Assembly (NCBI GenBank): GCA_002796345.1
Contig: PCXC01000074.1
Location: 1-33,818, forward strand
Origin: Deltaproteobacteria bacterium CG11_big_fil_rev_8_21_14_0_20_42_23
Lineage (GTDB): Bacteria; UBA10199; 2-02-FULL-44-16
Length of the DNA stretch: 33,818 nt
Direction: 5' to 3'
Part shown: positions 1 through 12,732 of the stretch, one piece after another
Position numbering within the stretch: position 1 is the stretch's first letter
Layout: each line of letters begins with the position of its first letter
Notes under the pieces: generated by a model
Told to the model about the DNA's origin: nothing
Database searches by the model: none
The model's input: only the letters and a program-made list of their open reading frames with translations
Program-made: the position numbers and the translations under genes

Positions 1-755
1 ACATCCTCAGGATTATTAATGGTGATAAATTCATCGGCTACATTCTCCACACTCGCCGCATCATGGGCAATACCTTTTGCTTCATCAGCACTCTTGCCTT
101 CCATTTTTTCAGCAACAAAGCTTGCGAAGTCATGCGCCCAAGTTGGATTGTTTCTTTTGTCTGGGACTGCATCCGTGAGCTTTTTCAAGTTTGCATCTAA
201 ATCGGCAGACTTTAACTTCAAGGCTTGAAGAAGGTCTGTTAGATCTTTACCAGTGTAACCTTTAGCTGTAAGTTGCTTTTTTGCATCAGCAACAACTCTG
301 TCACTTAGCCCAGCAGCTTTTCCTCCGCCTACTTTTTCAAATCGGCTTGGTGATTCGGAACCTGCGTCGTAGCCTCCACCGCCGTAGCTTGCTGGTGTAG
401 CTGTGTTTGCTGGTGTTTGAGCACTTGGCTCTGGCTTTAAAATTTTAATGCCGGCAAGTCTGAAATTGCCTAAGACATTGCGTACATCGTTTGTAAAACG
501 TCCTGCGTTTTTGATGGTGTTTGCAATGGCGTTTTGGTTTACATCACCAATAAGTCCGCGCAAAAATGCACTTCCGTGAAAGCCTGCAGAATTTCCAAAA
601 TAACTTCGAGCACCACCCCAAAGGGTTTCGCCACCGCCCAAAGAAAATGCTCTGTCTTGCACATTTTCAAATCCAGCCGCATCGCGAGCTAAGTTTAAAA
701 AGGCTTGATCAAACGATGGAGCTCCATATCCATACTGTTGTGATAAATAAGTCAT
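1..755 (-). CDS. Hypothetical protein, 3' part cut by window edge
   Basis: An open frame of about 251 codons runs from an ATG at 755 to the window edge without a stop, so the C-terminus is missing. I do not recognise the family. The N-terminus (MTYLSQQYGYGAPSFDQAF) has no signal peptide. It is followed by a Gly/Ala-rich segment, a Pro/Thr/Gln-rich linker near residues 115-135, then a charged helical stretch rich in Lys, Asp and Ala. No membrane helix or known motif is visible. The ATG overlaps the stop of the upstream gene by one base (TAATG), so the two are probably co-translated and work together. Codon use looks like its neighbours. The frame is certain; the function is unknown. Confidence 0.75.
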   Translation of the reverse strand, partial: MTYLSQQYGYGAPSFDQAFLNLARDAAGFENVQDRAFSLGGGETLWGGARSYFGNSAGFHGSAFLRGLIGDVNQNAIANTIKNAGRFTNDVRNVLGNFRLAGIKILKPEPSAQTPANTATPASYGGGGYDAGSESPSRFEKVGGGKAAGLSDRVVADAKKQLTAKGYTGKDLTDLLQALKLKSADLDANLKKLTDAVPDKRNNPTWAHDFASFVAEKMEGKSADEAKGIAHDAASVENVADEFITINNPED

Positions 756-1801
756 TAGGCGAATATCCCTCCGTAAATGTTTTTCAACATTTTTTCTAAC
801 TCTGATCCGTCGCTCTCTTCACCGGGAAGCGCTGCATAGCGCTGGCTAAGTGCAACAAGACCTAAGTTGAGTTTTGTTTCTTCAGGTGATGCAATATTTG
901 GAAGCGTTGGGCGTGGTCGCAAAACTAAACGCGAAAATTCTAGCCCCGCTTTATGACTATGCTCTTCCGCTTTTGAAGCAGGATTAAAGACAAGCAAAGA
1001 TTCTTCTGCGGCTAATTCTGTAACGTGCTCTTCGCCACCTTGCGATGAAACTCCAGTGCCAAGGCTGCCAAGCGCACCACCACTTGCTTTGTGGGCATGT
1101 CCTGCTCTTCCACCCTTTGCTGAAGCTTGAGTTTCTTCTTTATCTTTATCACTTTTCTTTTCTGTTTTGGTTTCAGTTTGAGCTTTTGGAGCTTCGCGAG
1201 GAGCAAGCGTTGCTGCAAGTTGCCCCGCAGCTTTTGTTGCTGCAGCTTGTGCGCTTGCAGCTGGCGTTTTTGTAGCATCAGCGACTGGCTTTTGAAGCGG
1301 TGCTTCTTTCGTTGGTAATGCCGCAGCATTTGGTGCTGGAGCTTTCGGCCCCACAAAAGCAGAGGCAACAAGCGGTGCTTGTGCAGCCACGTTTGCTTGT
1401 GGCGTTTTAGTTGGTGCTGTTCTCGCGCTCGAAGCAAAGTTCTGAAATTCTTGAGCCGGATTTCGAGTGGCTGGCTCATAGCTTTGCTGCGGCGCTTTTG
1501 GTGTTGAAGCTAAAGCTTTACTTGAACTTGGTTTGGCTCCAATCGCTGGTTTTTTTAGACCCTCTTTTGTCGGCGCAGTTTTGTGATCACCCTCGCCTCT
1601 GATATTGCTTTTTGGACTGGCAGCTTGCTGCCCGGTTTGAGGAGAAGCCGGCTTGGCAGAACCCTGTAACAGCGCTTTCAAACCTTTAAGCGTCTGATCT
1701 TTAGAAGCCTGATCCGCTGTTTTTTTATCTGCCTCATTTTTAGCGTGCAGCCTTGAAGCAGCACCTACATTTGGAGGAGTAATGTTCTTATCTATCGCCA
1801 T
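755..1801 (-). CDS. Ala/Pro/Lys-rich hypothetical protein, largely disordered
   Basis: A 348-residue protein starting at ATG 1801 with an AAGGA ribosome site five bases upstream. Residues 1-225 are dominated by Ala, Lys, Pro, Thr and Gln with few hydrophobic residues, as expected for a disordered region. A Lys/Glu cluster lies near 215-230 and a Gly-rich segment near 232-260. Only the last ~90 residues look folded, with an amphipathic end (ALSQRYAALPGEESDGSELE). No signal peptide, membrane helix or known domain is visible. Long Ala/Pro-rich tracts occur in linkers, length-control proteins and secreted effectors, but nothing here selects one of these. It is the first gene of a pair with the truncated gene at 1-755 (TAATG overlap). 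Confidence 0.75.
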   Translation of the reverse strand: MAIDKNITPPNVGAASRLHAKNEADKKTADQASKDQTLKGLKALLQGSAKPASPQTGQQAASPKSNIRGEGDHKTAPTKEGLKKPAIGAKPSSSKALASTPKAPQQSYEPATRNPAQEFQNFASSARTAPTKTPQANVAAQAPLVASAFVGPKAPAPNAAALPTKEAPLQKPVADATKTPAASAQAAATKAAGQLAATLAPREAPKAQTETKTEKKSDKDKEETQASAKGGRAGHAHKASGGALGSLGTGVSSQGGEEHVTELAAEESLLVFNPASKAEEHSHKAGLEFSRLVLRPRPTLPNIASPEETKLNLGLVALSQRYAALPGEESDGSELEKMLKNIYGGIFA

Positions 1802-2154: not shown

Positions 2155-3261
2155 TTAAAACGACATGCTTTTTCGGATGCGCAGCTTCGCCCCACCCTGA
2201 AGTGGATCGTGCGCTTCAATACGTTTGCACAATTCGCGATGCTCTTTGCAGCCAATCACGTTCAAGTCTTGTGGACGTTGTTTCACATAATGTTTTTTCA
2301 GCATCGCAATGCGCTCTTGCTTTTGCTTTACTTCAGCAGCAGGAATTTCGCCCGCAGCAAGGGCTGCATCAAGGCGTTTCAAGCAAGCTTTTTGTACTGT
2401 AATATCGCCGCGAAGCAAGGCAATGTCACAACCAGCATACAACGCCCGCACGGCAACATCGGGAACTTCACCCACACTTTGCAACGCCTTCATGCCTAAA
2501 TCATCACTGACCACAAGGCCACCAAACTGAAATTCTTCGCGCAAGATTTTGGTGAGCACTTTTCTGCTGCACGTCATCATATGGTCTCTATCTAAAAGGG
2601 GAACCTTCAAGTGACCTGTCATTATCGACGGCAAACCCGCTGCAATAGCTTGTTTGAAGGGAATGAATTCACACACCTCAAAACGTTTTTTGGTATGAGA
2701 AAGCGTTGGCAAACTTAAGTGGCTGTCTTCGTTGCTATCGCCATGGCCGGGAAAGTGTTTTCCACATGACATTACGCCAGCGGCTTCTAAACCTTCGATG
2801 AACTTCACGCCAAGCTCAGCAACGCGATCTTGGTTTTCGCTAAAAGCTCTTTCGCCAATGATGGGATTAAACACGTTGGTACTCACATCCAAAACAGGCG
2901 CAAAGTTGTAGTTAATGCCACAGGCCGCAAGCTCTTCTCCCATAGCCTTTGCCGCCTGAAACACAATATCGTCACCTTCGGCCGAAGCAGCTTTGGCCAA
3001 AACAGAAAATGCTGGAAAATGTGTAAAGGGTTTTGAGGTCCGCACTACTTTTCCGCCTTCGTGATCGATGGCAATAAACAGCTTTCCATCAGCTGCAGCT
3101 TGGAGCTCTTCCGTTAAGCTTTTCACTTGTTTTGGAGAACTGATGTTTTCGGAAAAAAGTACCACCCCGGCCAAGTGCTGCTGGCGGAGAAGGTCTAAAA
3201 AATCGGCCTCTGGGCGTTTTCCCTTGAAACCAAACATGAAAAAATTTCCAGCTTTTTGCAT
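2155..3261 (-). CDS. nagZ: Beta-N-acetylhexosaminidase NagZ (GH3)
   Basis: NagZ removes GlcNAc from GlcNAc-anhydroMurNAc muropeptides in the cytoplasm during peptidoglycan recycling. The 368-residue protein has the GH3 signature KHFPGHGDSNEDSH at 168-181, which carries the Asp179/His181 acid-base dyad of this family. It also has the nucleophile motif SDDLGM (first Asp, 253) and the sugar-binding DHEGGKVVR segment near 66-74. There is no signal peptide, consistent with a cytoplasmic enzyme. The ATG at 3261 follows GAGGAG by a few bases. It lies about 100 bases downstream of two oligopeptide-type permease genes on the same strand and may be transcribed with them. The C-terminal tail beyond about residue 330 is basic and slightly longer than in the E. 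coli enzyme. Confidence 0.93.
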   Translation of the reverse strand: MQKAGNFFMFGFKGKRPEADFLDLLRQQHLAGVVLFSENISSPKQVKSLTEELQAAADGKLFIAIDHEGGKVVRTSKPFTHFPAFSVLAKAASAEGDDIVFQAAKAMGEELAACGINYNFAPVLDVSTNVFNPIIGERAFSENQDRVAELGVKFIEGLEAAGVMSCGKHFPGHGDSNEDSHLSLPTLSHTKKRFEVCEFIPFKQAIAAGLPSIMTGHLKVPLLDRDHMMTCSRKVLTKILREEFQFGGLVVSDDLGMKALQSVGEVPDVAVRALYAGCDIALLRGDITVQKACLKRLDAALAAGEIPAAEVKQKQERIAMLKKHYVKQRPQDLNVIGCKEHRELCKRIEAHDPLQGGAKLRIRKSMSF

Positions 3262-3336
3262 TTTTTGCTCCTCATCAGTAATAGCGGCCGCAATCTGCCC
3301 CAGCAGGAAGAAGACGTCAAGACTTGGACCACAGAT

Positions 3337-3389
3337 TTACCAGAAAGTGCCAGGCACTTTCTGGTAACTATTTTGTGTCGGGGACAAAA
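3337..3389. repeat. Two adjacent palindromes at the end of the dppC-type gene
   Basis: The first palindrome has perfect 15-base arms (3337-3351 and 3353-3367) around a single A, with the core AGTGCCAGGCACT. The second has TTTTGT/ACAAAA arms (3371-3376 and 3384-3389) around a GTCGGGG centre. The permease stop codon (3368-3370) sits between them, so the second palindrome is inside the coding sequence. Sequences of this kind (GTGCCAGGCACTTTC, GTGTCGGGGACAAA) resemble dispersed REP-like repeats that can be mobilised by REP-associated tyrosine transposases. No T-run follows on the minus strand. Confidence 0.7.
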
Positions 3390-4186
3390 CGGTCTCTTAG
3401 GCCATCGCCCAAAAAGTTGAAGGCCAGCACCACCAGCATGATGCAAAGGCCTGGGAAAAACGAAAGATGCGGAGCTATTAGCAAATACTGCGTGCCTTGG
3501 TCTAGCAGCGCGCCCCAACTTGGAGTGCCCGCGGGAACACCAAGGCCCAAAAAAGAAAGCGAAGACTCAATCATAATCACGCCGGCCATTCCAAAGCTGG
3601 CGTTAATTACAAGTGGGCCCAGCATGTTGGGCAAGAGGTCTTTGAAGGCGATGCGAGATTTGCTGGCACCAAGTGCGATGCTGGATTGCACATAAGCTTG
3701 CTCGCGCAAAGAGAGTGCCTGCCCGCGGATGAGCCTGGCGTAACTCACCCAGCCTTTCAGCGAAAGAATGAAGATCACATTTGAAATGGACGGCCGCAAA
3801 AAAGCAGCCACTGCAATGGCAAACAAAAAACTGGGAAACGCAAGAAAAACATCGGTGAGAAAGAGAATGGCATTATCAATTGGGCCACGGCAGAGCGCGC
3901 CGCACAAACCCAAAAGAGATCCAAGCACGAATGAAACAAGTGTCACCACCAACGCAATACCAAGTGAAACTCTGGCGCCATATAAAACCAACGTAAAAAT
4001 ATCTCGGCCCTCAAAATCACATCCAAACCAATGCGTAGTATTTGGGGAAAGAAAGGAATCGGAAAGATTGTAGTAATGAAGATCGAACGGAGAAAGCAAA
4101 GGAGCAAAAACAGCAAACACTGATAAAACAAGGATCAGCACAAGACCGAGGTAAAGATAAAATGCTTTATATTCAGTTTTTTTCAT
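3368..4186 (-). CDS. Oligopeptide-type ABC transporter permease (DppC/OppC family)
   Basis: The inner-membrane permease (272 residues) is the second of two that form the channel of a peptide importer. One helix near residues 10-32 is followed by the N-terminal segment with WFGCDFEGRDIFTLVLYGAR, typical of OppC/DppC. Several helices and the EAA-type loop follow (ALGASKSRIAFKDLLPNM, around residues 170-187), where the ATPase docks. The family ending GDGLRDR is present, but the last residues (FVPDTK) are encoded by a palindromic repeat. The ATG overlaps the stop of the upstream permease (TAATG). No ATPase gene accompanies it in this window. The family is certain; the substrate is not shown by the sequence. 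Confidence 0.92.
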   Translation of the reverse strand: MKKTEYKAFYLYLGLVLILVLSVFAVFAPLLSPFDLHYYNLSDSFLSPNTTHWFGCDFEGRDIFTLVLYGARVSLGIALVVTLVSFVLGSLLGLCGALCRGPIDNAILFLTDVFLAFPSFLFAIAVAAFLRPSISNVIFILSLKGWVSYARLIRGQALSLREQAYVQSSIALGASKSRIAFKDLLPNMLGPLVINASFGMAGVIMIESSLSFLGLGVPAGTPSWGALLDQGTQYLLIAPHLSFFPGLCIMLVVLAFNFLGDGLRDRFVPDTK

Positions 4187-5106
4187 TACAAATTCACTCG
4201 CGGATCAATGACTTTATAAAAGCAATCGGTGATGGCGTTAATAAAGACATACAAAAACGAAATCACTAAAATGGTTCCTTGCACCACCGGATAATCTCGC
4301 CGGTTGATAGCATCTAAAAGTAAGGTACCCAGACCTGGCCACGCAAAAACTTTTTCGGTAATAATAGCACCGGCAAAAAGTGCGCCCAGCTGCAAACCTA
4401 CAATAGTCACAATGGGATTAAGCGCGTTTCGCAAAATATGCTTGTACAAAATACGACGCTCCGAAACCCCTTTTGCACGCGCAGTAGTCACATAGTCTTT
4501 TTTCATTTCAGACAGCATTGTTGAACGTATCATTCGGGAAAGCATTGCTGCAAGCGCAGTTCCCAAGGTAATGGAAGGAAGCACAAAAGAAGCAAATCCT
4601 TCGCGGCCGGAAATGGGAAACCAGGAAAGCCAAAGTGAAAAAACAATAATCAACAATGGGCCTAACCAAAAATTGGGAATTGAAATACCAAGCAAAGAAA
4701 AAAACATGGCGGCACTATCTGCACACTTCCCTTTTTTTACCGCAGCTAATATTCCCAGCGGAAGTGAAATAAAAAGCGCTACTAACAGGGCAGAAAAACT
4801 TAAGCTTATGGTTGCCATAAAACGACTGCCAATATGAGCCAGCACCGTTTTGTGATCGTAGAGCGAGCGGCCCCAATCTCCGGTGACAAGCCCGCCTAGA
4901 AAATCGAAATACTGTTCATGCAAAGGCTTGTGTAAACCAAGCTGCACAATAAGGCTCTGCCTATCCGCACTTATAGCTTGCTCGCCCAAGATAAGATCTA
5001 CAGGATCTCCGGGAATAGCGTGAAGAAGAAAAAAAACCAACGTTGAAACAGCAAGCAACACGGGAAGAAGTAAAAGCATGCGTTTGAGAAAATACCGAAA
5101 AACCAT
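4186..5106 (-). CDS. Oligopeptide-type ABC transporter permease (DppB/OppB family)
   Basis: The first permease of the peptide importer, 306 residues. I start it at the ATG at 5106 (MVFRYFLKRMLLLLP), one base beyond the stop of the binding-protein gene. An upstream start would overlap that gene and add residues the family lacks. Family marks are the N-terminal helix followed by HAIPGDPVDLILGEQA, the LGLHKPLHEQYFDFLGGLVTGDWG segment split across residues ~53-78, and the EAA loop TARAKGVSERRILYKHILRN, which contacts the ATPase. Six helices are evident. The tail KVIDPRVNL matches the usual IDPR ending. It overlaps the next permease by one base (TAATG). Confidence 0.93.
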   Translation of the reverse strand: MVFRYFLKRMLLLLPVLLAVSTLVFFLLHAIPGDPVDLILGEQAISADRQSLIVQLGLHKPLHEQYFDFLGGLVTGDWGRSLYDHKTVLAHIGSRFMATISLSFSALLVALFISLPLGILAAVKKGKCADSAAMFFSLLGISIPNFWLGPLLIIVFSLWLSWFPISGREGFASFVLPSITLGTALAAMLSRMIRSTMLSEMKKDYVTTARAKGVSERRILYKHILRNALNPIVTIVGLQLGALFAGAIITEKVFAWPGLGTLLLDAINRRDYPVVQGTILVISFLYVFINAITDCFYKVIDPRVNL

Positions 5107-5107
5107 T

Positions 5108-6661
5108 TTAGTGTTTACCTGCCTGCTTTGTAAGTTCTGCCAGCATTTTAAAGCTAGCATCGGGGCTTAAGTGCACGCCTTCAATTGTATTCCAAAAAGC
5201 CACTACATTATCTTCATACCATAACGGAATCAGCGGAAGTTCAGTGAATAATATGCTTTGTGCTTCAAGATAATATTTTCTGCGCGCCTCAGGTGTTTGC
5301 GCTTTTCTTGCTGCGAGCAAAATGGGATCAAGCGCTTTGTTTTTGTATCTTCCTCGGTTCAAGCCTTCGGGAGGAAGATTTTTTGAGTAGAAAATGTCGT
5401 ACAGTAAATCTGGCTCGGTTACGCCAACCCATTGCAAACTGTAGAGTTCAAAATTTCCTTTTTTGATGTCATCAAAAAATGTTCCCCATTCATACGACTG
5501 AACCGCAACCTCAACACCAATCTGGCCTAGCTGTCTGGCGATCATTTGCGCAATTTCAATACGCTCTTTTGAGCTTGAAGTTTTATACTGCAAGCTAAAT
5601 CTGGGTTTTGGTCCATTTCCATCTGGATCTGGATAGCCTGCTTCATCTAACAAACGCATTGCTTCTTTTTGATCATACTGTATTTGAGGCAAATCTTTGT
5701 TATAGGCCCAGTTGGAAGGTGAAAGAATGGAATTTGCCTTTCGCGCATAGCCTTTTCGATAATGAACAATCAGCTCATCCCGATTAAGCGCAAGTGCAAT
5801 GGCTTTTCTCACCTTTGTCTGCTTAAGAATGGGATTTTCTAGATTCATCCCTAAGTAAGAAACGGTAATGCCGAAATCTGAAAGCACATTTATGTTTTCC
5901 TTCTGTTTTACTTTTTCCAACAATACTGGAGGAACTCCATTTAAGGCAAGGTCAACATCGCCTTTCAAAAGCTTCAGCACCAGCAAGTTATCGTCTTTTA
6001 AAATATCAAAACGAATACCCGCATTTTTGGGAATGCCCTGAAAAGCTTGGGGAAAAGCTTTTAGCTCTACAAAGGCATCATCTTGCCATTGCACAAACTG
6101 GTATTGGCCAGTTCCAATGGGATGACGAGTAAAATCATCTTTGAGTTTCAGCACCTCTTCTTTGGGAACAATGCCTAAGGAAAGTGCCGTTAGGAAAGGC
6201 GCGTAGGGTTCTTGAAGTGAAATGGAAAATTCATACTTTCCTTCTTGCTGAATGGTTTTCACCTTTTCAAAAGCAGATTTAAACGGCGAAGCCACTTCAT
6301 CCTTCAAAATGGAATTGTAGGTATAGAGCACATCATCGGCCGTAAGCTCTTTGCCATTATGGAAACGCACCTCTTTACGAAGGACAAAGTGGTATGTGTT
6401 TGAAGTTTTTTGCTGATAGCTCTCTAGCAAATCTGGCACCAGTTCAAGTTTTTCATTGAGGCGAAACAAGCCATTGAAGATTAATTTTGAAAGTTTAAAT
6501 CCAGTTCCATCCGTTGCAAGGCGTGGATCGAGGTTGAGGGGAGGAGCTTTAATGGCAACGTGAAGCAAATGATCGGTGCGATTTCCTTTTTGGCAAGCTA
6601 AAGATGAAAAAATAATGAGCACTAGAAAACATTTCACAAAAACTGATTTCGCCTTAAACAT
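5108..6661 (-). CDS. Extracellular solute-binding protein, family 5 (peptide-type), lipoprotein
   Basis: A 517-residue periplasmic binding protein of the DppA/OppA/SBP_bac_5 class that feeds the two permeases downstream. It begins with a lysine-containing signal peptide ending SSLAC, so Cys23 is the probable lipid anchor. Family marks are NLDPRLATDG near 44, VRFHNGKELTADDVLYTY near 99, and the repeated-domain region with VRKAIALALNRDELI near 280. The order binding protein, permease B, permease C with 1-base gaps or overlaps is an operon. Linkage to nagZ downstream and to PBP4/MltD across a divergent promoter suggests muropeptides or murein peptides as ligand. That is inference; general oligopeptide uptake is equally consistent with the sequence. 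Confidence 0.92.
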   Translation of the reverse strand: MFKAKSVFVKCFLVLIIFSSLACQKGNRTDHLLHVAIKAPPLNLDPRLATDGTGFKLSKLIFNGLFRLNEKLELVPDLLESYQQKTSNTYHFVLRKEVRFHNGKELTADDVLYTYNSILKDEVASPFKSAFEKVKTIQQEGKYEFSISLQEPYAPFLTALSLGIVPKEEVLKLKDDFTRHPIGTGQYQFVQWQDDAFVELKAFPQAFQGIPKNAGIRFDILKDDNLLVLKLLKGDVDLALNGVPPVLLEKVKQKENINVLSDFGITVSYLGMNLENPILKQTKVRKAIALALNRDELIVHYRKGYARKANSILSPSNWAYNKDLPQIQYDQKEAMRLLDEAGYPDPDGNGPKPRFSLQYKTSSSKERIEIAQMIARQLGQIGVEVAVQSYEWGTFFDDIKKGNFELYSLQWVGVTEPDLLYDIFYSKNLPPEGLNRGRYKNKALDPILLAARKAQTPEARRKYYLEAQSILFTELPLIPLWYEDNVVAFWNTIEGVHLSPDASFKMLAELTKQAGKH

Positions 6662-6685: not shown

Positions 6686-6714
6686 TTGACAGGCTTTCCT
6701 TGCCTGGGTATGCT
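6686..6714 (+). promoter_or_regulatory. Sigma70-type promoter for dacB
   Basis: A perfect -35 box TTGACA (6686-6691) is separated by 17 bases from TATGCT (6709-6714). The start codon of dacB lies 35 bases further on. This is the best housekeeping promoter match in the window. The gene on the other side is divergent, and its own promoter must lie in the same 87 bases, but I could not pick convincing boxes for it. Confidence 0.75.
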
Positions 6715-6748: not shown

Positions 6749-8212
6749 ATGTCTCGATCCTCATTTTTTTTCGTATTTCTTTTTCTTACCTTCACGTTCC
6801 CAACATTTTTTTCGTCTCTCGCCTCCGCAGAAAATATCCAACAAGCTCTTGAGCGAGAAATCAAAAACCCTGCTTTTTCTCCCCAGCAAACAGCCTTGGT
6901 GGTTGCAAAAGCCGAGACCGGAGAAAAAATTGCCGCCATTCATGCCGATGAACTTCTTTCGCCAGCATCAACCGCAAAAATTGTTACTACCGTTGCAACG
7001 CTTTCACTTTTGGGCCCTCAGTATACTCTTCCCACTTATTTTTACGCCGACCAGGCTCCTCGCCAGGGAAAAATCAAAAACCTTTACATCAAAGGAACCG
7101 GCGACCCTTTCATTGTCAACGAACAACTCTGGCGAATGGTTCACAACCTCGCAATAGCTGGGGTTGAAAGCATTGAAGGTGACATCATCATCGACAATAG
7201 TTTTTTTGACGCCTACGACTACCCTAGTTCTGGTCAAAACTCTATGCGTGCTTACGGAGCTCAAACAGCAGCTTTTTCTACCAACTTCAACTCCATTGCG
7301 CTGCATCTGTTTCCTACACAAAATAACGCACCAGCAAGAGTGATCATGGATCCTCCCATTCAAACCATTAAGCTTATCAACCGTGTAAAAACGGGGAAAA
7401 AATATACCATTCATTTTGATTCTATGGTTGCAAATGGCATCGAAACAATCACCATTTCAGGATCACTTCCTGCTTCGATGAAAAGAAAAACAATTTATCG
7501 AAGCGTTGCAAACCCACTTGCAGCAGCAGGTGGAACGCTGCTCTACTTTTTGGACCAACACGGAATAGAACATCGCGAACACATTCAAATTCGAAATGAG
7601 AAAGTTCCCGCATCTGCTAGTTTGATCTTGAAGGAAGAATCCAAATCGCTTTCCCTTTTGCTTCGTGACATGAATAAATTTTCAAATAATTTTGTTGCCG
7701 AACAACTCACCAAACATCTCGGTGCTGTAAAATATGGTTTTCCCGGCAGCACTGAAAAAGGCATCCGAGCAATGCACAGTTTTTTCACTGCGAAAAATAT
7801 TCCTCTCGATGGCATGCAAGTGGAAAACGGTTCTGGGCTTTCCAACAAAACTCGCTTAACCGCCCGGCAACTTGTTTCTATGCTTGAAATAGCGTACCAG
7901 GATTTTTCTCTTCGCTCCGATTTAATGCAAAGCCTGTCGGTATTTGGCGTCGATGGCACTTTAAAACATTGGGGTGGAAATGAAGCGCATCCTCTCTATG
8001 GGCAGCTCAAGGCAAAAACAGGTACTCTTTCTGGCACAAGCGCACTAGCTGGTTTTGTTCCACTCAAAAATGGTGAGGTGGCCGTTTTTGCTCTAATTGC
8101 AAATGGATTTCGAAAAAGTATTTCACACGTGCATGATGCACAGCTCAGCATTGCTGAAAAAATAATGAATTCAAGTTTTTCTCTCTCAACGGCATCAGAA
8201 GAAATAAAATAA
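6749..8212 (+). CDS. dacB: D-alanyl-D-alanine carboxypeptidase/endopeptidase PBP4 (peptidase S13)
   Basis: A periplasmic penicillin-binding protein that removes the terminal D-Ala or cuts peptide cross-links in peptidoglycan. The 487-residue protein has a hydrophobic signal peptide (cleavage near residues 26-28, SLASA). The three catalytic motifs of the class are in order: SxxK as Ser74-Thr-Ala-Lys77, SxN as SNN at 312-314, and KTG at 423-425. Between the first two lies the ~200-residue insert typical of S13 enzymes, with the GTGDP and DNSFFD segments. Length matches the family. It heads a plus-strand operon: the transglycosylase gene starts one base after its stop. A strong promoter lies just upstream. 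Confidence 0.95.
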   Translation: MSRSSFFFVFLFLTFTFPTFFSSLASAENIQQALEREIKNPAFSPQQTALVVAKAETGEKIAAIHADELLSPASTAKIVTTVATLSLLGPQYTLPTYFYADQAPRQGKIKNLYIKGTGDPFIVNEQLWRMVHNLAIAGVESIEGDIIIDNSFFDAYDYPSSGQNSMRAYGAQTAAFSTNFNSIALHLFPTQNNAPARVIMDPPIQTIKLINRVKTGKKYTIHFDSMVANGIETITISGSLPASMKRKTIYRSVANPLAAAGGTLLYFLDQHGIEHREHIQIRNEKVPASASLILKEESKSLSLLLRDMNKFSNNFVAEQLTKHLGAVKYGFPGSTEKGIRAMHSFFTAKNIPLDGMQVENGSGLSNKTRLTARQLVSMLEIAYQDFSLRSDLMQSLSVFGVDGTLKHWGGNEAHPLYGQLKAKTGTLSGTSALAGFVPLKNGEVAVFALIANGFRKSISHVHDAQLSIAEKIMNSSFSLSTASEEIK

Positions 8213-8213
8213 A

Positions 8214-9896
8214 ATGAAACGAGAACAACTTATCATCAATATTTTACTGGGCCTTTGCATATGCTTTGGACTCTTAGCCCTCACCAGCTATTTATCCGAA
8301 CGCATGAGCCATGCAAAAATGGCAGCTCCACGTTCACAAAAAGAAAAAACTGACGAAAAAACTTCGCTTGCGGATGTTATCGAACTTAATACTCCTGATA
8401 CTGAAAAAAAAGAGCACCATTTTTTTTCTGAAGATGGTTTCATCGCTCGGTTTGTTCCTGAAAAAAATCCGCTTCAAGAACAAACCCCACATAAAGCTAG
8501 TGACTTAGAATCTTCAGTCTCTGACTTCACACCACAGGAATCACCCGAAGCTTTTCAGCGCTTTGTTCAAACGTATACCTTTCCTCTATCTTGGTTAAAC
8601 ACCTACACCCCTTCTGCAAAAGGAAGCCACAAAAGCCCCGACTGGACTGCAGTTCCGGATGGCTTAAAAACTGAAGTTACATTTTGGAAAGATATTTATG
8701 CACGATACACCAACCAAGAAGTGGTAATCCACGATTCAAAATATCTTGATATCATTTATACAACCCTCAATCTTGGCCCACTTTACAGCAAGACTGGCAT
8801 TTCTGAACTTCAACGAGAAAATGAAATTGAAGACACAATAGAAGATGCGAAAAATAAGATTCGAGACTCACTTAAAAAATTGAGTTCCGTCACAAATGCA
8901 AGAGATCTTACTCCTGAAGAATGGACGCTTTGGAAATTATATAAAGATATTAATGAGGAAAATAAATTTGAAGCCGCCAGGACAAGAGTACGAGCACAAG
9001 CAGGGCTCAAAAATATTTTTAAGGAAGGCCTCGCGGCTTCAAGTGCTTATCTCGGAGAAATGGAAAATCTTTTTGAACAAGCAGGACTTCCTCCCGAACT
9101 CTCTCGACTTGTTTTTGTAGAATCTCTTTTCAACCTCAACGCACATTCATCTGCTGGTGCAAAAGGCGTTTGGCAGTTCATGGATGGAAGTGCAAAATTT
9201 TATAACCTTAAAAACAATCACCTCACTGATCAACGTCTTGATCCAATCTTGGCAACAAAAGCTGCCATCAAACTATTGAAAGACAACTTTGAAATGCTTG
9301 GCACCTGGCCAACTGCGATCAATGCTTACAATGCGGGCAGAGGGAGATTGCGTGAGGCAACACAAACCCTTGGCACACACGATATCACCAGAATCATAAA
9401 AGAATTTAAACACACAAAATTTGGCTTTGCTTCACGAAATTTCTTTCCTTCTTTTTTAGCTGCCTATGCAATTTGTGAAAATTATAGAGATTACTTTGGA
9501 AACGTGGAATTTTCTCCAGTGCTTTCGTTTGACCTCGTTGAAACTGACTACAACATTAAAGTTCCTGATGCGTCCTTGCTCAGCGCAATTACCTTGGCAG
9601 AGGTGAAAACTTTAAATCCGGCTTTGAAGCCTAAAGTTTTTTCAGGTGAATATTATTTACCTATGGGTTTTCCGCTTCGTCTTCCAAAGGGAAAAGGTGA
9701 ACAATTTCTCAAGACGATTCCAAAAGTTCCATCAAGCCACCGAAAAGATATTGTCCACAAAGCAAAAGCTGGAGAAAGTTTAAAGGGAATTGCAAAGACC
9801 TACGGCATCAGCGAAGAAAGTTTGAAGCACGCCAATAAGAGCTTGGGCAAAATACAAGAAAACCAAGAAATTGTAATCCCTCGCAAGTTTCTCTAA
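8214..9896 (+). CDS. mltD: Membrane-bound lytic murein transglycosylase, MltD-like, with LysM
   Basis: Cuts the glycan strand between MurNAc and GlcNAc with formation of 1,6-anhydroMurNAc. The 560-residue protein has one N-terminal hydrophobic segment (residues ~7-26) without a clear lipobox, so it looks anchored by a helix rather than a lipid. A long low-complexity linker and a helical domain follow. The SLT domain starts near residue 290: the catalytic Glu is about 303 in VFVESLF, followed by SSAGAKGVWQFMDGSAKFY and INAYNAGRGRLREA. A single LysM-like domain ends the protein (HKAKAGESLKGIAKTYGISE). E. coli MltD is a lipoprotein with two LysM repeats, so this is a variant. It sits one base after the dacB stop. 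Confidence 0.9.
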   Translation: MKREQLIINILLGLCICFGLLALTSYLSERMSHAKMAAPRSQKEKTDEKTSLADVIELNTPDTEKKEHHFFSEDGFIARFVPEKNPLQEQTPHKASDLESSVSDFTPQESPEAFQRFVQTYTFPLSWLNTYTPSAKGSHKSPDWTAVPDGLKTEVTFWKDIYARYTNQEVVIHDSKYLDIIYTTLNLGPLYSKTGISELQRENEIEDTIEDAKNKIRDSLKKLSSVTNARDLTPEEWTLWKLYKDINEENKFEAARTRVRAQAGLKNIFKEGLAASSAYLGEMENLFEQAGLPPELSRLVFVESLFNLNAHSSAGAKGVWQFMDGSAKFYNLKNNHLTDQRLDPILATKAAIKLLKDNFEMLGTWPTAINAYNAGRGRLREATQTLGTHDITRIIKEFKHTKFGFASRNFFPSFLAAYAICENYRDYFGNVEFSPVLSFDLVETDYNIKVPDASLLSAITLAEVKTLNPALKPKVFSGEYYLPMGFPLRLPKGKGEQFLKTIPKVPSSHRKDIVHKAKAGESLKGIAKTYGISEESLKHANKSLGKIQENQEIVIPRKFL

Positions 9897-9940
9897 ATTG
9901 TGCCTTGCAGCGCTTTTCTTTCCTTGCTAGGCATAGGCCC

Positions 9941-10261
9941 ATGAAAATTCTCGTCGCCCTTCTTCTTTGCCTGTGCGTTTCTTGCGCCTCTCTCACTCCA
10001 AGCAACAAAAGAGCTGAACATATCATCCACAGCTACTTCAAAGACTACGCCAAAAAATATCCCACTACTCCTTTTGGTGAAAAAGGTGTTGAAAAAGTTG
10101 AAATCATCTCGCAGAAACAACTGCGCAAAAATTACAGTGCTGCAGACGCTTATGTCTATTTGAAAACCGGCGATATCATCCAAGTTGATGCAACGTTACA
10201 AAAAAAAGCCATTATGTGGAAACTGCTTTCATGGGAAAATCCTTACAACGAAGAACAGTAA
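9941..10261 (+). CDS. Small putative lipoprotein, unknown function
   Basis: A 106-residue protein, with the start taken at the ATG at 9941 because it gives a short signal peptide (MKILVALLLCLCVSCASL). Cys15 is the probable lipidation site, although the residue at -3 is Cys rather than the usual Leu. The mature part is basic and has no recognised domain. It contains a short predicted strand/helix mix with VYLKTGDIIQVDATL. It follows the transglycosylase gene by 44 bases and is probably co-transcribed. Its position suggests an envelope role next to wall enzymes, but no function can be assigned. Confidence 0.7.
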   Translation: MKILVALLLCLCVSCASLTPSNKRAEHIIHSYFKDYAKKYPTTPFGEKGVEKVEIISQKQLRKNYSAADAYVYLKTGDIIQVDATLQKKAIMWKLLSWENPYNEEQ

Positions 10262-10281: not shown

Positions 10282-12732
10282 CTAATACACTGCTCTGAGT
10301 CCATGCTTTATTCTGGAAGTCGTCACTTCAATTTTTCTTCCATCTGTTTCAAGTTCAATCAAACCATCTTTGTCCGTTCCAAAAACAGTTGAAAACTTTC
10401 TCTGCAAACGCTGCATCACAAGTGGATTTGGCAAATGATAACGGTTTCCTTTTCCAACTGAAAGAAGTGCAATTTTTCCTTTAAAGGCATCTAAAAAGTT
10501 CTGAGACGAAGAGGTTTTACTTCCATGGTGAGCCACTTTGAACACATCGAAGGTTTTTCCTTCCAGCTTTGGAATGAGTTTTTTTTCAGTTCTTTTTTCG
10601 ATGTCACCCGTGAAAAGCATTGCAACGTCTTTATACCGAAGCTCAGTTACAACTGAAGCATTGTTCTGGGTAGAAAATCTGTGCTCGTCGGATGGCGCCA
10701 AAGGACATAGGCTTATTTTTTTCTCTTCATAGCAGGCTGAATTTTCATTAACGGCCAGCATTGGAACATGATGCAGCTGAAGTTCGGCTTTAAGCCTTTT
10801 CCATTGTTCACTTTGAGGATTTGGTTCAAATCCATTCCACCAAAAAGTTTTAATGGAAAACAGCGGAAGTAAAGAATGAAAGCCAAACGCATGATCGTAG
10901 TCAGCATGAGTAAGCAGCGCAAGATCGAGAGAGCTTATTCCCTTTCTCCACAAGAGAGGCGCAATCACTTTTTGCCCTATTTCAAAAGAAGATCCCGTTA
11001 AGCCTCCAGCATCGATGAGCACAGACTTTCCGCCGGGAAGCTCAATCAGCATTGAATCACCTTGGCCAACATCAATTACGCTTACTTTTAGAGTTCTCTG
11101 AAAGGAATGAAAGAAAAAAGGAGCATAAAAAATGAAGCAAAAAAGAAAAGTAAAAAACAGAAAATGATTTTTTTTTCTTTTCCAAACGGGGAAGAAAAAA
11201 AGAAGAAGAACAAAATAGAGAGCAACAACACTCAAAGCACTTGGAGCACAGTGAAACACCAGACTTTTTGTATGCTCATAAAAAGAACTTGCTCCATGCA
11301 ACACTCTTTCCAGAGAAAAGCTTGCAAACTTCAAAAAGAAAACTGAAAGACGTGCAAAAGGAAAGAAAATGAAAGCCGCCATTAAAAGTGGCAAAAGAAA
11401 GAAAGCAAAAAATGGAACCACAAAGAGATTACTTACTATTCCTAAAATACTCACGAAGTGAAAAGCGTAAGCCACAAGCGGAAGGGAAACGAGACTTGCC
11501 ACACAAGTTAAAACAATAAATTGAACGAGCTTCCAGGTGTAGTATTTTTTCTGCACATCGGGAAAGAGAGATGAAATCAAGAGAAGCGCCCGAGGCATAA
11601 AAAGGATGATGCCGCCAACACTTAAAAACGAAAGCTGAAAAGAAAGATCAAACACTGAAAGTGGCCAGATGAAAACTATAATTAATGCCGAACATGAAAG
11701 TGTGGTCAGTAAATCTTGTTTCCTCAGTAAAAATTTACCAAGCACAAAACAACTGAGCATAATACCAGCTCTCACTGATGAAATGGGCATTCCCACAAAA
11801 ACAATAAAAACCCATACACATAACAAAGCCAAGGGACTTACCAGTTTCCAGCGCGGAATATGAAGAAAAAAATCTCGAAACGGAAACAACAGAAGTGAAA
11901 TCAACAAGGCCAACAAGAGAAAAATAAATCCAATGTGCAAACCTGAAATAGCAAGCACATGTGCAATACCCAATTCTGAAAAAATCTGCTTCGTGTCATC
12001 TTGAAGATCATTTTTTTCGCCCAAAAGAAGTGCCTTCATTATCGGAGCGCTTTGAGCTGAAGCCGTTTTCTCTATTCTTTTTTGCAAGGCGAGATAAGTT
12101 TTTTGAAAAATACTTTTTTCGCTTACTTCTATTTTTTTCAAAGTTTCATTTTTTGAAAAGGCAAGTGTCCCAATGTCTTTTGTAGAAAGATAAAGTGGAT
12201 AATTGAACGAAGCCGGATTCTGAAAAGCGTTTGGCTTCTTAAAGCTAGCCTCGCCCTGCAAAACATCGCCGGGCTCATATTTCCCCGCTTCCGCAAAAAT
12301 GAAAAGTTGGGTTTTGAAAGTTTGTTCAAATTCCGCACACGCCAACACTTCAGCAATATAGGAATCACCCTTCTCTCTTTTACGCGCCGCTTCCATCACA
12401 GAAAAGGTACAAACAGATTTCACACTGTCTTTACCTGCAAAGACATCTTCCAAGTGATGAATCTGCACATAACGTTGTTGCGTGCTAAAAAAACCAAGCG
12501 AAACGAGTGAAAAAACAAAAAGAGAAAGTGTGAAGCGTCTTCTGTGGCGACGAAGAAAAAAGGAAAGAGAAAAAAGAAGAAACAAAAGGAAAATGAAAAA
12601 AGGAAAAAAAGGTAAAAATGAAGGAAGAGAAAGAGAACTAAACTGCGCGAGGAGCACGAGACAAGTGCAACACACGAGCGGGCGAATGCTTAAGGGCTTT
12701 ATCAATACTTTCAAGCTGCTGTGCAATGGCAT
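10282..12732 (-). CDS. comEC: ComEC/Rec2 family DNA uptake channel
   Basis: An inner-membrane protein that passes single-stranded DNA into the cytoplasm during natural transformation. The 816-residue protein begins with a very Phe/Leu-rich membrane region. A soluble segment and the competence domain follow, with the hallmark ELGIAHVLAISGLHIGF near residue 235 and many further helices. A C-terminal metallo-beta-lactamase-like domain starts near 550 (VIDVGQGDSMLIELPGG, then THADYDHAFG and VAHHGSK). I use the ATG at 12732 because GGAG lies six bases upstream. That start overlaps the preceding gene by 95 bases. A GTG at 12657 would shorten the overlap to 20 bases but has no clear ribosome site. 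The Phe/Leu richness makes the opposite strand extremely purine-rich. Confidence 0.92.
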   Translation of the reverse strand: MPLHSSLKVLIKPLSIRPLVCCTCLVLLAQFSSLSLPSFLPFFPFFIFLLFLLFSLSFFLRRHRRRFTLSLFVFSLVSLGFFSTQQRYVQIHHLEDVFAGKDSVKSVCTFSVMEAARKREKGDSYIAEVLACAEFEQTFKTQLFIFAEAGKYEPGDVLQGEASFKKPNAFQNPASFNYPLYLSTKDIGTLAFSKNETLKKIEVSEKSIFQKTYLALQKRIEKTASAQSAPIMKALLLGEKNDLQDDTKQIFSELGIAHVLAISGLHIGFIFLLLALLISLLLFPFRDFFLHIPRWKLVSPLALLCVWVFIVFVGMPISSVRAGIMLSCFVLGKFLLRKQDLLTTLSCSALIIVFIWPLSVFDLSFQLSFLSVGGIILFMPRALLLISSLFPDVQKKYYTWKLVQFIVLTCVASLVSLPLVAYAFHFVSILGIVSNLFVVPFFAFFLLPLLMAAFIFFPFARLSVFFLKFASFSLERVLHGASSFYEHTKSLVFHCAPSALSVVALYFVLLLFFFPVWKRKKNHFLFFTFLFCFIFYAPFFFHSFQRTLKVSVIDVGQGDSMLIELPGGKSVLIDAGGLTGSSFEIGQKVIAPLLWRKGISSLDLALLTHADYDHAFGFHSLLPLFSIKTFWWNGFEPNPQSEQWKRLKAELQLHHVPMLAVNENSACYEEKKISLCPLAPSDEHRFSTQNNASVVTELRYKDVAMLFTGDIEKRTEKKLIPKLEGKTFDVFKVAHHGSKTSSSQNFLDAFKGKIALLSVGKGNRYHLPNPLVMQRLQRKFSTVFGTDKDGLIELETDGRKIEVTTSRIKHGLRAVY

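Follow-up and report, generated by a model that had tools for sequence, protein, structure and literature searches.

A nagZ-linked SBP-OppB-OppC operon as a probable ABC importer of peptidoglycan turnover products in place of AmpG in a deltaproteobacterial lineage

Muropeptide uptake controls how the wall is recycled and, in many bacteria, whether beta-lactamase is induced, and AmpG is the usual importer of cell-wall fragments. In Agrobacterium and other Rhizobiales/Rhodobacterales, AmpG is replaced by YejBEF-YepA (Gilmore and Cava, 2022; PMC9790009), an ATP-binding cassette (ABC) importer whose operon contains the ATPase gene, yejF, and whose muropeptide-binding, family 5 solute-binding protein (SBP) is unlinked. 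In the papers searched, no muropeptide importers other than AmpG and the alphaproteobacterial YejBEF-YepA were found. Two further systems show partial likeness to the locus described here: MppA of E. coli, a family 5 SBP for murein fragments that uses a permease/ATPase set encoded elsewhere, OppBCDF, and MsmX, an ATPase which serves several ATPase-less sugar importers (PMC7658222). The DNA analyzed (the window) is the whole contig PCXC01000074.1 of Deltaproteobacteria bacterium CG11_big_fil_rev_8_21_14_0_20_42_23, 33,818 nucleotides long and labeled C74 of a genome of about 2.03 Mb that is 99.99% complete. It contains genes encoding a family 5 SBP, an OppB-type permease and an OppC-type permease, followed by nagZ. 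We propose, with a probability of roughly 0.78, that SBP-OppB-OppC is an ABC importer of peptidoglycan turnover products, the likeliest being N-acetylglucosamine (GlcNAc)-anhydro-N-acetylmuramic acid (anhydroMurNAc) peptides, and that it replaces AmpG in this lineage.

Like YejBEF-YepA, this system is an ABC importer with a family 5 SBP in the stead of AmpG, NagZ is kept, and AmpG and the ABC system are mostly exclusive. YejBEF-YepA is the only ABC muropeptide importer in the papers searched, and the window system differs from it in SBP clade, operon make-up, nagZ linkage and the missing ATPase gene: nagZ is linked to the genes of SBP and permeases, and the ATPase would be encoded at a distance. 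The system lacks both the YejA/YepA-type SBP and the linked YejF, and its suggested kinship to YejBEF-YepA holds for function and not for the descent of the SBP. With AmpG, a muropeptide permease of the major facilitator superfamily, it shares the probable function and, in family f5 of the class, the slot beside nagZ; AmpG belongs to an unrelated family, has no SBP and is not ATP-driven. MppA borrows a whole permease, whereas the window system lacks the ATPases only, and MppA binds a free tripeptide and has an anchor Asp that the window SBP does not show. As with the multitask ATPases MsmX and MsmK (PMC7658222), importers without an ATPase of their own would share one; MsmX and MsmK serve sugar importers, whereas in the present case sharing would involve two distinct ATPases, OppD and OppF. 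The locus is fairly likely to represent a second, independently evolved ABC-type substitute for AmpG, namely an SBP-OppBC clade for anhydromuropeptides, swapped in place and with borrowed OppD/OppF.

The sequence-only reading had placed SBP, OppB, OppC and NagZ on one strand, with PBP4 and an MltD-like enzyme divergent from them, and Pfam and NCBIfam profiles agree with all these assignments. The SBP gene (5108-6661, minus strand; PF00496, 271 bits) encodes a probable lipoprotein, the candidate muropeptide receptor. The OppB gene (4186-5106, minus strand) scores 156 bits with PF00528 and 357 bits with NCBIfam Opp2B; its first ATG is at 5160, and the ATG at 5106, 1 base past the SBP stop codon, is probably the true start. 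The OppC gene (3368-4186, minus strand; PF00528, 85 bits; best NCBIfam model Opp4C, 265 bits) overlaps that of OppB by 1 base. NCBIfam models of the microcin C/YejB type score far below Opp2B and Opp4C for these permeases. The operon has the make-up of peptide/opine/nickel (Opp/Dpp-type) importers: it encodes one family 5 SBP plus two permeases of the BPD_transp_1 family whose EAA loops are intact, and it has no OppD/OppF of its own. NagZ (2155-3261, minus strand) is a single-domain GH3 beta-N-acetylglucosaminidase (PF00933, 269 bits) scoring 248 bits with NF003740, above the cut-off of 207 of this NagZ model, and carries the KH(F/I)PG(H/L)GxxxxD(S/T)H motif as KHFPGHGDSNEDSH. Its GH3 domain starts at residue 16, no signal peptide is visible and the enzyme is predicted to be cytoplasmic.

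No match to AmpG (TIGR00901) was found in the window or in the rest of the 99.99% complete genome. The comparison set contains 46 genomes of the class (genomes are labeled G, the own genome being G000, families f and loci L), and AmpG is present in 21 of them. In family f5 AmpG occupies the exact slot of the importer: G017 shows ComEC, a conserved 118-amino acid protein (hyp118), MltD and PBP4, divergent from AmpG-nagZ; G021 shows AmpG-nagZ in the slot, with the same scaffold as far as hyp118; G010, within the limits of its contig, shows hyp118-MltD-PBP4 divergent from AmpG; and G031 has AmpG-nagZ at a contig end. The AmpG proteins of f5 have the AmpG subfamily as best match, at 217 bits, below the cut-off of 350. 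In G036, also of f5, SBP-OppB adjoins PBP4, and a second contig opens with OppC-nagZ; no end overlap was found between these contigs, so the continuity of OppB and OppC in this genome is presumed. Its nagZ, PBP4 and MltD nest within f5 in FastTree trees (local support 1.0), and therefore only the importer differs, the ABC genes taking the place of AmpG beside the cytoplasmic NagZ. Close relatives within this poorly known lineage encode AmpG at precisely the position of the ABC importer, which is therefore probably a second route of fragment import that evolved independently. In f14 (G020 and G035), AmpG and nagZ are divergent neighbors.

Of the 46 genomes, 24 encode an ortholog of the SBP, with E-values below 1e-75 against 1e-57 for the next best match. 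Six genomes contain both AmpG and the SBP, 18 only the SBP, 15 only AmpG and seven neither, an avoidance with Fisher p = 0.007, not corrected for kinship (p = 0.032 among near-complete genomes). Repeated class-wide searches for AmpG and SBP gave the same outcome. When the count is based on complete permeases rather than on SBPs, a post hoc count with OppB/OppC sought in the fetched loci only, p ranges from 0.0003 to 0.001. In G029 and G039, SBP-nagZ is found without adjoining OppBC and AmpG is located elsewhere.

The order ComEC-hyp118-MltD-PBP4, divergent from SBP-OppB-OppC-nagZ, is found again in different families and orders of the class, and because it is kept over such distances the arrangement is not due to chance. 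SBP-OppB-OppC fills the importer slot in at least 10 genomes. G001, G003, G005, G006, G008, G014, G016 and G019 show the whole block or the larger part of it, G004 shows it up to the contig limit, and G012 has it without a recognized PBP4 and with one open reading frame (ORF) between OppC and nagZ. In split loci the permease stays with nagZ, as OppB-OppC-nagZ (G015 and G030) or OppC-nagZ (G022, G027 and G032). OppB and OppC show about 50-67% identity over the class, with intact EAA loops. Two other arrangements were considered and rejected: a divergent OppC beside OppB in f12, where the next ORFs in L057 and L059 encode other proteins and the OppC-type gene sits elsewhere with nagZ, and a third kind of importer next to nagZ in G026 and G043, where the adjoining ORFs, inspected by eye, are not transporter-like. 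The muropeptide importer for wall recycling put forward by the sequence-only reading thus gains support from the absence of ampG, the conserved nagZ linkage, AmpG in the slot of sister genomes and the separate clade of the SBP. That reading had named three findings that would jointly speak against it, an ampG elsewhere in the genome, an SBP clustering with general peptide receptors and no nagZ linkage in relatives, and the opposite was found for each.

The AlphaFold2 model of the SBP shows a confident family 5 fold (mean predicted local distance difference test score, pLDDT, 88). Its closest solved structures are AppA, NikZ, HpDppA and GsiB (YliB), none of which reaches 30% identity, the fold matches include a sialic-acid SBP (5z99), and a PDB sequence search gave remote matches only. 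The N-terminus contains a hydrophobic stretch and a Cys, which is at the same place in relatives. In a 55-row maximum-likelihood tree, the class orthologs form a clade (support 100/99) with SBPs from metagenome-assembled genomes (MAGs) of Calditrichota, Bdellovibrionota, Gammaproteobacteria and Myxococcota. This clade is separate from OppA/MppA, DppA/SapA, GsiB, NikA, DdpA, and YejA with its rhizobial relatives, the rhizobial rows not being sorted into YejA or YepA; the split from the Yej clade has support 100/100. Both other SBPs of the own genome also fall outside the clade. The SBP is accordingly not grouped with general di- or oligopeptide receptors, and the tree excludes it as a direct ortholog of YejA/YepA or MppA. 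Asp419 of OppA, which anchors the amino group of free peptides, has a counterpart in MppA, DppA, SapA and the SBP encoded on contig C29 of the own genome. No member of the SBP clade shows Asp at this place, the residue being mostly V, I or L, so the SBP has neither the clade nor the anchor of OppA/MppA/DppA receptors. This fits a ligand with a blocked peptide N-terminus, as in anhydromuropeptides. NikA, GsiB and YejA likewise have no Asp there, and its absence therefore speaks against a standard peptide receptor and is not proof of the substrate.

Some class members, and bacteria of other phyla, have the SBP with no permease linked to it. In MAGs of Calditrichota, Gammaproteobacteria and Myxococcota (L006, L007, L008, L009, L010, L013 and L014), such genes adjoin unrelated ones, e.g., those encoding an RlmD-like methyltransferase or an aspartate kinase. 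A Bdellovibrionota MAG (L011:39-5371) shares with the window the divergent placing of the SBP and PBP4-MltD, but an LspA-like protein follows the SBP, and neither OppBC nor nagZ is near it. G001 (C22:109857-121317) and G002 (C35:11330-20783) contain some six to eight distinct family 5 SBP genes in tandem; in G001 these adjoin C29-type BCDF genes.

The whole window contains no ATPase gene, and the clusters of relatives show no match to profiles of the own OppD/OppF, so that an ATPase hidden near the operon was rejected. A genome search supported what the sequence-only reading had expected, an ATPase from elsewhere: four OppD/OppF-type genes, in two complete SBP-B-C-D-F systems on contigs C29 and C38. 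An unlinked, C38-like App-type ABCDF system is present in every relative whose oppD/oppF region was fetched, and among near-complete genomes that contain the ABC cluster, most hold one OppD/OppF-type pair only (two oligo_HPY genes). Unless the importer runs on an ATPase that has no oligo_HPY domain, two permeases must depend on this single pair. With their EAA loops intact, OppB and OppC should still dock ATPases. We infer that shared OppD/OppF ATPases are the likely motor of SBP-OppB-OppC; in the own genome the C38 pair is favored over that of C29 since its type is the one kept in relatives, and either could serve. ATPase sharing by peptide-type importers was not found in the papers searched, and the window system offers a clean test case for it.

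According to the proposed mechanism, the MltD-like enzyme and PBP4 would free anhydromuropeptides in the periplasm, where the SBP lipoprotein would bind them. OppB and OppC would move them inward over the inner membrane, powered by an OppD/OppF pair encoded elsewhere, likeliest the App-type pair of C38. NagZ would then cleave off GlcNAc in the cytoplasm, and LdcA and an Mpl/MurC-type ligase would recycle the peptide. The sequence-only reading had also pointed to other recycling genes, and of these ldcA and an mpl/murC-type ligase gene were found, and anmK was not. Contig C37 (L181:9958-13560) shows a row of genes encoding LdcA (PF02016), an S12 beta-lactamase-family protein (nearest PBP4B) and the Mpl/MurC-type ligase, and a separate MurC-like gene is also on C37. 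Since the ligase counterparts beside LdcA in G022 and G019 are above the Mpl cut-off and this MurC-like gene exists, the C37 ligase is probably Mpl.

Several observations weigh against the proposed import of anhydromuropeptides in place of AmpG. The MurC score of the C37 ligase itself, 405 bits, exceeds its Mpl score of 376 bits, which falls just short of the Mpl cut-off of 388.7. No match to AmpD (Amidase_2, PF01510) or to AnmK (PF03702) was found in the own genome, which leaves the release of the peptide from anhydroMurNAc unexplained. AnmK and AmpD are each present in only six of the 46 genomes, although NagZ, LdcA and an Mpl-type ligase are common in the class; with both absent here and rare in the class, recycling is not of the complete E. 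coli type and the steps after NagZ would differ from those of E. coli. With one vote per family, the avoidance between AmpG and SBP is not significant (p = 0.18), and therefore kinship could explain part of the pattern. G006, G014 and G019 carry both complete systems, G025 has the SBP but no nagZ, and in G002 and G033 (83-84% complete) nagZ directly adjoins PBP4 with the slot empty (L149, G002:C187; L135, G033:C51), yet neither AmpG nor the ABC importer was found.

The Pfam family of the SBP is common to peptide receptors, PBP4 and LdcA/Mpl work on stem peptides, and MppA with OppBCDF is a precedent for an importer of free murein peptides. Such an importer, or one of general oligopeptides, would have nagZ as a neighbor merely as a fellow wall-turnover gene. 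This explanation is unlikely: the SBP lies outside the OppA/MppA and DppA clades and has no alpha-amino anchor Asp, NagZ acts on sugars and not on free peptides, and the slot is occupied in f5 by AmpG, the importer of the form that carries the sugar. Some family 5 systems transport sugars, as in Vibrio chitin-oligosaccharide uptake, and with 5z99 among the fold matches and a GH3 glucosaminidase as neighbor, the operon might import chitobiose-type or other GlcNAc oligosaccharides for catabolism by NagZ. We consider this very improbable, the neighbors being murein enzymes, with no adjoining chitinase or sugar-catabolism genes, and the slot being swapped with AmpG. SBPs without a linked permease, in class members and other phyla, would suit a protein acting chiefly as a periplasmic sensor or chaperone of wall fragments, with the permease accessory or decaying; the class-wide conservation of OppB/OppC and their EAA loops, and the permease rather than the SBP staying with nagZ in split loci, leave little room for this role.

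If import of anhydromuropeptides by SBP-OppB-OppC is true, a third, unrelated importer is exchanged with AmpG at a single site, and the uptake step would be readily replaced. It would help to explain the use of NagZ in bacteria without AmpG, and would be a case of a heterodimeric motor shared by a peptide-family importer and another full importer.

Between oppC and nagZ, a gap of 106 bases contains a perfect palindrome of 31 bases, TTACCAGAAAGTGCCAGGCACTTTCTGGTAA (3337-3367, no strand assigned), which would form a hairpin, has one copy in the window and may be an attenuator, a processing site or an operator. The 87-base gap between the divergent SBP and PBP4 genes contains a promoter-like TTGACA-17-TATGCT site upstream of PBP4 (6686-6714, plus strand; 10/12 match), the count of such sites in the region not being above shuffles. 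PBP4/DacB (6749-8212, plus strand), of peptidase family S13, scores 285 bits with PF02113 and, over the cut-off, 229 bits with TIGR00666, and shows STAK, SNN and KTG motifs. The MltD-like lytic transglycosylase (8214-9896, plus strand) contains SLT (PF01464, 76 bits) and LysM (PF01476) domains and the catalytic motif ESLFN. Downstream of nagZ (755-1801, minus strand) there is a gene encoding an Ala/Lys/Pro-rich protein of 348 amino acids with no family match. The protein hyp118 (9905-10261, plus strand) has no Pfam or NCBIfam match, shows a possible lipobox and is kept beside MltD class-wide, with orthologs at the same position in many relatives. ComEC (10282-12732, minus strand; TIGR00361, 299 bits, over the cut-off), also conserved in position, is the distal end of the conserved scaffold.

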